Shown: in pieces, positions 54,286 to 57,190 of the stretch
How positions within the stretch are numbered: the first letter of the stretch is position 1
How the letters are laid out: each line of letters begins with the position of its first letter
Source of the DNA: Yarrowia lipolytica
Taxonomy: Eukaryota; Ascomycota; Dipodascomycetes; Dipodascales
Reading direction: 5' to 3'
Assembly (NCBI RefSeq): GCF_001761485.1
Contig: NC_090771.1
Span: 2,790,001 to 2,854,000 of the forward strand
Length of the DNA: 64,000 nucleotides
The notes under the pieces: model-generated
Databases searched by the model: none
What the model saw: the letters and a program-made list of their open reading frames with translations, nothing else
What the model was told of the DNA's origin: nothing
Made by a program: the position numbers and the translations under genes

Positions 54286-55470
54286 CTAAAGGTTGCCTCG
54301 CTTGGCCTGCTCCCGCTCAATGGCCTCAAACAGAGACTTGAAGTTGCCGGCGCCAAAACCCTCAAAGTTTCGTCGCTGGATGATCTCAATGAACACGGTG
54401 GGCCGGTCCATCAAAGGCTTGGTGAACAGCTGCAGCAGATATCCGCCCTCGTCGAAATCAATCAGAATGTTGAGCGCCTGGATATCCTCAAACTTCTCCT
54501 CGAGCTTCAGAGATGACTTTGCCAGCCGCTCCTTCATGTTCTCGTAGTAAGATCCAGGGACCGAAATGAACTCCACGCCACGAGCCCGCAGATCTCGGAC
54601 GGTGTCCAGGATACAGTCGGTCCGCAGAGCAATGTGCTGGATACCGGGGCCGTCGTAAAAGTCAATGTACTCCTCAATCTGGGACTTTTTCTTGCCCACG
54701 GCCGGCTCGTTGACGGGCATCTTGATCTTCTCGTTGGGTGAGGCCATGACCACGGACTTGAGAGCAGAGAACTCGGTGCAAATGTCCTTATCGTCGACCG
54801 ACCAGAACCGGTGGAAGCCCAGAGTCTCCTCGTAGTACTTGCATGCGTTATCCATCTCGTTCCAATCCTGGTTTCCAACGCAGTGGTCGATGTGCATGAG
54901 CTCAATGTTGGGCAGGAAGGCCGCGATGGGGTCCTTGTTGGCGGAGGTGTCGACAAATCCGGGAAGAAAGGCGCCCTCGTAGCTGCCTCGCTCAATCAGA
55001 GTGTGAGTGGTATCTCCGTAGGTAGAGATGACGGCGTAGGTGACGGAGCCATGTGCGTCCTTGAGCACCTTGGGCTCGGAAATCACTCGGACGCCCTTCT
55101 TGACAGCAGCAGAGAAAAGCTGCTCCACATTGTCGACCTCAAAGGCCACATCCTTGACGGCGTCACCGTGCTTGACCAGATGGGCGTGGATCTCGTCGGC
55201 TTGGGGCTCTCCGGTTCTCAGGGCAGACGAGAATGCAAATCTGACCTGGCCGTTGCCCACGACATGGGTGGTCACGTCTCGAGAGCCAGTCTCAAGACCC
55301 TTGTAGGCGATGGGAGAGAATCCCATTCGGGTGATGTAGAAGGAGGCGGCCTGCTTGGCATTACCAACGTACCAGTGGACGTGGTCATAGCCCCGATAGC
55401 TGTCTAGCGAGTTGGTCACCTCGTACGAGGTGGGTGTGTGTGCAGGGGTGACTTCGACGGAAGGTGACAT
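54286..55470 (-). CDS. HPD: 4-Hydroxyphenylpyruvate dioxygenase
   Basis: A 394-residue non-heme iron enzyme that converts 4-hydroxyphenylpyruvate to homogentisate, the second step of tyrosine breakdown. In Y. lipolytica, homogentisate that accumulates gives brown pyomelanin. Two VOC-fold halves are visible, the first from [19 protein letters not shown] (about 28-46). Iron ligands are H196 (MHIDHCVGN), H279 ([11 protein letters not shown]) and E362 (VFIEIIQRR). The C-terminal [21 protein letters not shown] is the family's gating helix. The start is ATG 55470 ([18 protein letters not shown]); a longer in-frame extension upstream runs through the TATA region and is not credible. The neighbour at 56519, on the same strand, is a TTC36-like protein, whose mammalian relative is reported to stabilise this enzyme. 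Confidence 0.96.
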
Positions 55471-55540
55471 GTTGTTGGTGGTTATTTGTTTGTGTGTCAA
55501 AATTGTGTAGAGAGAGAAAATTCTAGGTCGAGCCCATCTT

Positions 55541-55550
55541 CTATATATAT
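55541..55550 (-). promoter_or_regulatory. HPD: TATA element of HPD
   Basis: On the minus strand this reads ATATATATAG, 71-80 bases before the ATG at 55470. Confidence 0.55.
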
Positions 55551-55684
55551 TGGAGATTCTTATTTGTGTCGCATACGCTCTGAAAAAAAAAAAAGGTCCA
55601 AAATGCACATTAAGATTATCGCGGTGCACAATCAGTCTCCGCGTCTTACCGGAGGGGTACCAAACGGCGCAAAGTTATCGGCTG

Positions 55685-55692
55685 TTAGGGTT
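55685..55692 (-). promoter_or_regulatory. HPD: AACCCTAA box upstream of HPD
   Basis: TTAGGGTT on the plus strand, about 215 bases before the ATG. It is the third promoter in the window with this core. Confidence 0.4.
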
Positions 55693-56518
55693 CATCGTAG
55701 TGGAGGAGCAAGTGTCTCGTGAGGAGGGGTAGAGGGGGGGTTTACGGTAGTGGCAAACATTGGAAATTGTGCCCCCCAAACAACACATTTTCCCACTCCT
55801 TCTCTGTACCATCTCACACCCATTGCCGAATTGCACACTAGTGCAACAAGTTATAATACCACCCACCACCTCCAATACCCGGGGCGTCTCACATGCACCG
55901 AAGATCTATCCGCACTAACAGATTATCCGAAGGAAGGTCTATAGGTGTGGATGACCCCGCGCAGTCAATAACCGGATAAAAGTAGGAACCTGCAGATAAG
56001 GGGAGTGCAGCGAATGTGGTGGTGGGGGGATGAGATGAGGTGATATTACGGGTGGTTGTATAACAGCAAGCAGGGATGGTGGGGTATCGTAGACACATAC
56101 AGTGCCCATCTCACTCGCCCGGCTGTTGAAGGACATAATAAATGAACTCATTATAGGGAAGCGTCTATAGAGAAAAATTTGTCATGCGTATTATAACTCG
56201 ACTCTATGACAAGGTGCAGTTATCGTGTGTCTTCTGATTGGACACTACACGTGGAAAGGGTAAGTCGGATTGATTTTGGAAAAACAAACTACTTGTACAA
56301 TACTGTACTAGTGAAGGGTGCTCAAGGGATCTGTGGGGGAGTTTGAATGGTACGAGTTGTATTGGTTCGTACTTGTACTTATGGCAGTCTCTTACGTACG
56401 GATGTCTATTGCAGCTTATAGCGATCTCTTGCACAACGATAGTGTATGTCTACGTCTACAACAAGTAGCTACAGTAGCGTACTGTCAGTTGTATAAATAA
56501 TGCTTTGAGACTATATAA

Positions 56519-57190
56519 TTATTCCTCCTTCAACTGCTCCCACTTCTTACCCTCCTCAATTAGAGCTTCTCTGACAATGTTCCCACACAGACGAGCGTAG
56601 GGATTGACCTTGACAGCCAGCTCGGCAGCAATCTTGTTGCCGTACTCTCCTGCTCGTCGGAAACACTCAGACGCCTTCTCCTCGTCTCCCCACGAGTCGC
56701 CTTCGTTGTTTCTACCCTCCATGTAAATCTGGCCCAGCTGAGCATAAGCCTGCTGCAGCACCGTACCCTGCATCTTTGAAATGATCAGCTGATCGGGACC
56801 AGCCAGCTTGATTGCTCGTTCTAAATTGGAGATGACATCCAGCTTTGAGGCGGATTTCTCGCCTTTCTGGTCCAAAATCCGTTCAAGTTGAGCCAGGTTG
56901 TTGTAGACGGAGGCGTATTTGGGGGCCTCGACAATGATCTCTTTGAGCTTCTCGATGGCGCGTTTGACGTTGGCCACAGAGTCGTCTTTGTCAACAGACT
57001 CAATCACCGTCTTCTCAATCTGCACAAACTTCTCCACAAGCTCCACAGAAACGTGTTGGTCTGGGGGAAGATAGGCGTTGACCTGGATGCGTTTTTGCTG
57101 GGCCTGAGTAGGCTCCTCCAGCTCGCCCGGATTGAGGAGTTTCGACAGAACGACCTGGTCGTGGGTAGACAGATGAGTTGCGCTGGACAT
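56519..57190 (-). CDS. TTC36-like tetratricopeptide-repeat protein
   Basis: A 223-residue helical protein with about three TPR-like units. The segment APKYASVYNNLAQLERIL (89-106), followed by ISNLERAIKLAG (120-131), closely follows human TTC36 (PERASAYNNRAQARRL...DLERAVELSG). The end VNPYARLCGNIVREAL (195-210) matches the TTC36 hallmark LNPYAALCNRML. A long insertion rich in charged residues (about 106-120) and an N-terminal extension are the differences. TTC36 is a cytosolic HSP70-associated TPR protein; in mice it is reported to bind 4-hydroxyphenylpyruvate dioxygenase and protect it from degradation. Here the gene is the immediate upstream neighbour of HPD on the same strand. I use the ATG at 57190; the codon before it is TTG. 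Confidence 0.8.
   Translation of the reverse strand: MSSATHLSTHDQVVLSKLLNPGELEEPTQAQQKRIQVNAYLPPDQHVSVELVEKFVQIEKTVIESVDKDDSVANVKRAIEKLKEIIVEAPKYASVYNNLAQLERILDQKGEKSASKLDVISNLERAIKLAGPDQLIISKMQGTVLQQAYAQLGQIYMEGRNNEGDSWGDEEKASECFRRAGEYGNKIAAELAVKVNPYARLCGNIVREALIEEGKKWEQLKEE

Follow-up and report, generated by a model that had tools for sequence, protein, structure and literature searches.

The stretch of DNA analyzed here (the window) comprises 64,000 nucleotides of the 20.5 Mb Yarrowia lipolytica genome, which is divided into six contigs, and corresponds to C2:2790001-2854000. The following genes and features were identified in the part of the window discussed here:

51321-53018, minus strand: cytochrome P450 gene (PF00067, 196.8 bits).
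54286-55470, minus strand: HPD, encoding 4-hydroxyphenylpyruvate dioxygenase (394 residues; matches to TIGR01263 and to PDB entries; single match in the genome).
55471-56518, no strand: intergenic stretch of 1,048 bp, 3' of the TTC36-like gene and 5' of HPD.
56519-57190, minus strand: putative TTC36/HmgX-family gene (223 residues, intronless; three TPR hairpins and a C-terminal NPYARLC).
59940-61115, plus strand: gene encoding a protein with an ACT_7 domain (PF13840, 99.9 bits, in two stretches).

In the order of minus-strand transcription, the TPR gene (57190 to 56519) is followed by the 1,048-bp gap, in which no ATG-initiated frame of more than 70 residues was found, and then by HPD (55470 to 54286). 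HPD and the TPR gene are therefore the same-strand neighbors that an earlier note on this DNA had described, with the TPR gene upstream, and their tandem arrangement excludes a common divergent promoter. The P450 gene lies downstream on the same strand, 1,267 bp past HPD. On the plus strand, the nearest frame that was considered starts at 59940 and encodes the ACT_7-domain protein. The ACT_7 domain is familiar from amino-acid sensing. One copy each of HPD and of the TTC36-like gene was found in the Y. lipolytica genome.

The assignment of 54286-55470 as 4-hydroxyphenylpyruvate dioxygenase, also made in the earlier note, is beyond doubt. The gene is intact and the protein scores 461.9 bits against TIGR01263 (cut-off 277), with residues 27-394 covering positions 2-353 of the 353 in the profile; it also matches solved HPPD chains in the PDB, where 35 HPPD-like sequences were listed. 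Most of the solved HPPD-like proteins were made in E. coli, without a known partner of the HmgX/TTC36 type, which speaks against a dedicated accessory protein. Because a single copy of HPD was found in this genome, the window gene is probably YALI0B21846g. Disruption and overexpression of that gene, under the name 4HPPD, have been described for Yarrowia, and the strain lacking it made no homogentisate (PMC8071058). The paper contains no mention of hmgX (0 occurrences).

In an AlphaFold2 model of the TPR protein, three TPR hairpins (helices 49-68/72-88, 93-108/116-130 and 139-161/166-182) are found together with an N-terminal helix, and NPYARLC, at residues 196-202, is located C-terminal to the hairpins. 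Pfam TPR models match the protein below their cut-offs. The best structural matches of the model are TPR domains, with those of Hip and HOP ranked at the top, while the best sequence-profile match among solved structures, to OGT, is weak (E 0.0055). A profile search of the structure sequences yielded weak matches only, and no solved TTC36 was among them.

The protein differs in 1 of 223 residues from P0001, a sequence named Yarrowia lipolytica. A first protein search for relatives returned 11 proteins, Sugiyamaella being named among them, and later profile searches returned 853 and 908 matches, the best 120 of each being listed. Among the matches listed were Yarrowia, a few other yeast-like sequences and, for the named rest, mostly Sordariomycetes; no animal-named protein occurred among the 120 listed of the 853 and of the 908 matches, and no Aspergillus-named protein among the 120 listed of the 908. 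The motif NP[YT]AxLC is present in all 168 family members that were fetched. Four of these (P0095, P0148, P0157 and P0164) carry the database name "Tetratricopeptide repeat protein 36-like" and the name of P0146 begins likewise, its end not being shown; the remaining members are hypothetical, nameless or incompletely named. A genome search found the 56519-57190 gene to be the sole family member in Yarrowia. No confirmed relative of HPD or of the TPR protein was found in the viral contigs searched, and the two bacterial loci matched in the contig search encode long TPR arrays with NPxAxLC in no frame.

The relationship to TTC36 (presumably the protein also called HBP21) was assessed with a human TTC36 query of 189 residues that was reconstructed rather than taken from a database record, and all TTC36 scores reported here rest on this query. 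When this query was compared with the six-frame translation of the Yarrowia genome, the best match was the 56519-57190 gene (E 6.7e-6), with 34% identity across TTC36 residues 65-177, followed by a 504-residue TPR frame (E 2.8e-4). This genome-wide best match, established in one direction only (from TTC36 to the Yarrowia genome), is the comparison to which we give the most weight for a probable kinship with TTC36. Profiles built from the fungal proteins gave this TTC36 query 44.5 bits (yeasts), 31.5 bits (filamentous fungi) and 48.4 bits (both), compared with 3.4, 8.8 and 7.8 bits, respectively, for the best of 2,000 shuffled sequences, and an hhalign alignment of TTC36 with the yeast profile covered 166 columns, spanning TTC36 residues 4-179 of 189.

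The likeness was further divided by segment, using 5,000 shuffles, of which 4,518 (TPR part), 2,476 (C-terminal) and 2,251 (N-terminal) were scored. The profile of the TPR part scored TTC36 at 27.6 bits, compared with at most 9.6 for the shuffles and with 18.9 and 14.9 for two bacterial TPR arrays. The profile of the C-terminal non-repeat segment gave 20.5 bits, compared with 7.8 for the best shuffle, and no TPR control was among its top six, while the N-terminal profile gave a non-significant 6.0 bits (best shuffle 6.8). When whole-sequence sums were considered, a bacterial TPR array, which had been selected by the same motifs, exceeded TTC36 with two of the three profiles (57.4 vs 44.5 and 62.2 vs 48.4 bits) but not with the filamentous profile (28.0 vs 31.5), because its sum accumulates over seven or six weak repeats; in the best single stretch, the array reached 14.9 and 17.3 bits, compared with 29.3 and 28.4 for TTC36. 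The earlier note's description of the gene as TTC36-like thus agrees with the genome-wide best match, with the C-terminal segment and with the "TTC36-like" names in the database. A generic TPR protein was also considered, given the sub-cut-off Pfam matches and the assorted TPR folds, and was dropped on the basis of the genome-wide best match of TTC36 and the C-terminal segment.

A gene of similar position is known from molds. In the tyrosine degradation cluster of A. fumigatus, hmgX (AFUA_2G04210) has an intronless 771-bp transcript and encodes a cytoplasmic protein reported to have no conserved domain; hppD adjoins hmgX in most ascomycetes sequenced by then, and tblastn searches for hmgX homologues in human, C. 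elegans and Dictyostelium were negative (Keller et al. 2011, PMC3203155). Deletion of hmgX left A. fumigatus unable to use tyrosine and led to accumulation of 4-hydroxyphenylpyruvate, and homogentisate was absent even in extracts of an hmgX/hmgA double mutant. The levels of hppD transcript were unchanged in the deletion strain, and HmgX has been described as needed for HPPD activity (PMC3203155); the main text of this paper mentions no immunoblot. In P. marneffei, an hmgX deletion equaled an hpdA deletion in its growth defect on tyrosine but did not copy it in macrophages (PMC4374905), so that the requirement of HPD for HmgX may be partial. Cluster types with both hppD and hmgX have been reported for Eurotiomycetes and Dothideomycetes (Greene et al., PMC3914699). 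Elsewhere in the literature found, the A. fumigatus gene is listed as a conserved protein or under the name of its cluster.

Because the 56519-57190 gene is the sole family member found in Yarrowia and is located where hmgX would be expected, we infer that it is the Yarrowia hmgX, an assignment based on position, family, size and lack of introns. HmgX would then be the fungal TTC36. In the open PMC literature, no paper was found on HmgX together with TTC36 or on the full name of TTC36 together with HPPD, and by title nothing relevant was found on HmgX with tetratricopeptide and no paper on a fungal TTC36. Both the linkage in fungi and the function have been published before, for HmgX, and what is new here is the joining of HmgX to TTC36.

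This joining could be questioned if HmgX and the window gene represented a fungus-specific TPR protein that resembles TTC36 owing to its small TPR size, HPD having acquired two separate helpers. The lack of a human hmgX homologue reported by Keller et al. (PMC3203155), the N-terminal part without significant likeness to TTC36 and the higher sums that two of the three profiles gave a generic bacterial array of TPRs are in line with such an explanation. However, the C-terminal segment, which is not a repeat, matches the TTC36 query well above the best shuffle, the hhalign alignment extends over nearly the whole of TTC36, and the window gene is the match that TTC36 selects from the entire genome; in addition, it would take a coincidence for two unrelated TPR proteins both to be dedicated to HPD. 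We consider this explanation unlikely.

Two further genes of the tyrosine pathway were located on another contig, C4:

C4:3620264-3621442, minus strand: fumarylacetoacetase, FAH (TIGR01266, 435.6 bits; cut-off 375.3).
C4:3621957 onward, plus strand: homogentisate dioxygenase, HGD (TIGR01015, in two pieces).

These are divergent neighbors with start codons approximately 0.5 kb apart. For maleylacetoacetate isomerase (MAI), no frame exceeded the TIGR01262 cut-off (best 57.3 bits), although introns may hide the gene. The earlier note had proposed to score the distance of TTC36 homologues to HPD, HGD, FAH and MAI in fungal genomes; in Yarrowia, HGD and FAH are on C4, apart from the HPD pair on C2, and MAI was not located. 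The mold tyrosine cluster appears to be represented in Yarrowia by two pairs, HPD with TTC36/HmgX and HGD with FAH. The HGD frame in this assembly contains two one-base frame shifts within approximately 22 nt of each other (C4 approximately 3622825-3623105). These could be an assembly error or a real lesion; if real, the lesion could matter for the natural formation of pyomelanin.

Consecutive locus tags denote neighboring genes by convention, unless a scaffold ends between them. One family member, P0111, is MAC_02016 of Metarhizium acridum CQMa 102, and MaHPPD is MAC_02015 according to a figure legend (PMC8951457). Six neighboring locus tags of three species were looked for in print and one, MAC_02015, was found. 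As Metarhizium is a Sordariomycete and Yarrowia belongs to the Saccharomycotina, presence of the pair in both suggests that the two genes have been kept together, or were joined twice, across a deep split in the Ascomycota. The linkage, whose conservation the earlier note had raised as a possibility, thus recurs in Metarhizium by locus tag, and in fungi it had already been published as hppD-hmgX adjacency.

It might also be argued that a TTC36 relative came to lie beside HPD by accident and functions elsewhere. The two genes are 1 kb apart without a shared divergent promoter, and a search for CCG/CGG pairs at spacings of 0-12 found no pattern common to the HPD, TTC36-like and HGD promoters (800, 800 and 511 bp), as would fit an accidental neighbor. 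Set against this are the Metarhizium tags and, if the gene is hmgX, the published statement that the two genes adjoin in most of the ascomycete genomes available in 2011 (PMC3203155). In addition, two genes specified in advance would be adjacent by chance with a probability of approximately 2 in 6,500, assuming about 6,500 genes in Yarrowia. An accidental neighbor is accordingly quite improbable.

Overall, we favor, with a probability of roughly 0.8, orthology of the 56519-57190 gene to both hmgX of fungi and TTC36 of animals; its product would be an accessory protein dedicated to HPD, and the gene would have been kept beside HPD in a split cluster. A mammalian counterpart of such a role has been described: in mouse hepatocytes and human cells, TTC36 binds HPD through VOC2 (residues 180-338), and it lowers STK33 binding and phosphorylation of T382, so that PELI1 binding and HPD degradation are prevented (PMC6753076). 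In Ttc36 knockout mice, liver HPD is reduced and tyrosinemia develops (PMC6753076); the earlier note had named the binding, the protection from degradation and the tyrosinemia.

The Yarrowia HPD was aligned with mammalian chains over this region. With chain 5ec3_A, which we take to be human HPD, 197 of 367 columns are identical across chain residues 19-381, including 86 of 159 in VOC2. Yarrowia HPD ends at residue 394, which stands opposite residue 381 in the mammalian alignment, and 1sqi_A, presumably the rat HPD chain, gives the same end. T382 is therefore the first mammalian residue without a counterpart in Yarrowia HPD, and the TNME motif is also absent. The published mouse mechanism cannot be transferred as such, and a shared role would have to differ. 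Operation of that mechanism itself in yeast, with a C-terminal HPD phospho-site protected against both a kinase and a ubiquitin ligase of the FHA-domain type, is suggested by the homologous partner proteins and by the lower HPD protein in mice that have lost TTC36, but it is contradicted for the named residue, and STK33 and PELI1 are known as animal proteins; we regard it as very improbable. Equally remote is a general co-chaperone resembling Sti1/Hop or Hip whose work has no connection to HPD, since the likeness to the top-ranked Hip and HOP folds is general among TPR proteins and NP[YT]AxLC recurs in every fetched family member, some of them named TTC36-like.

Returning to the dedicated accessory protein, the mold phenotype, in which activity is missing at normal mRNA levels, and that of the mouse, in which HPD protein is reduced, both fit a post-translational HPD factor that stabilizes or matures the enzyme, and making HPD active or keeping it active is the more likely ancestral role. 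The groove of the three TPRs and the conserved NPxAxLC segment may hold HPD, the contact probably being made through the second (VOC2) domain, and the bound HPD would be kept active or stable after translation. Loss of the TPR protein would be predicted to stop tyrosine catabolism at 4-hydroxyphenylpyruvate, with neither homogentisate nor pyomelanin being formed. By analogy with molds and mice, we infer that the 56519-57190 protein performs this helper role in Yarrowia. The earlier note's extension of the HPD-TTC36 partnership to fungi is consistent with the need of HPPD activity for the hppD-adjacent hmgX (PMC3203155), while the T382 shielding part of that partnership has no target in the yeast HPD. 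If a helper is common to yeast, molds and mammals, the absence of T382 in yeast suggests that T382 shielding was not its original work. It seems rather more probable than otherwise, at a lower confidence than the orthology itself, that HmgX and TTC36 are one HPD maturation or stability family that predates the split of animals and fungi, and that T382-STK33-PELI1 control was added later, on a tail absent from Yarrowia HPD.

A further point concerns the N-terminal part of HPD. A 13-residue stretch in this part of ascomycete HppD has been proposed as a possible contact for HmgX, with the argument that it is absent from species without an apparent HmgX (Keller et al., PMC3203155). Yarrowia HPD lacks 12 residues in the N-terminal part of its nearest solved chain, 8jbw_A, and these are assumed here to correspond to that segment. 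If so, Yarrowia and animals would have the helper without the segment, which would then not be a general HmgX contact.

Two HPD helpers have so far been described separately: HmgX in molds, for which no counterpart in humans was reported, and mouse TTC36, whose mechanism depends on a single residue. Should these be one and the same protein, fungal genetics would indicate a contribution of the helper to HPD activity even without T382. The case for the 13-residue HppD contact would become weaker, since the helper would then occur in animals, which lack the segment, and tyrosinemia after TTC36 loss would correspond in animals to the phenotype of hmgX mutants. A yeast test based on pigment color could then be available for a tyrosinemia-linked protein, and pyomelanin engineering, in which HPD is overexpressed by itself, might benefit. 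The union of HmgX and TTC36 would matter more than the gene itself.

Compared with known systems, the Yarrowia protein shares with A. fumigatus HmgX the position next to hppD, the lack of introns, a small size, the lack of a Pfam domain above cut-off and the single copy; HmgX is longer (256 residues, from 771 bp, vs 223), and A. fumigatus hppD and hmgX have an apparent bidirectional promoter within a six-gene cluster, whereas the Yarrowia pair is in tandem and apart from HGD and FAH. The Sordariomycete TTC36-like proteins, such as MAC_02016, belong to the same family by profile search (E 3.2e-80) and are next to HPPD by locus tag, but they have approximately 265 residues with insertions and carry NPTAKLC in place of NPYARLC. 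With mammalian TTC36, the Yarrowia protein has in common the TPR stretch, the C-terminal NPYAxLC segment and HPD as partner gene, while the N-terminal parts show no significant likeness.
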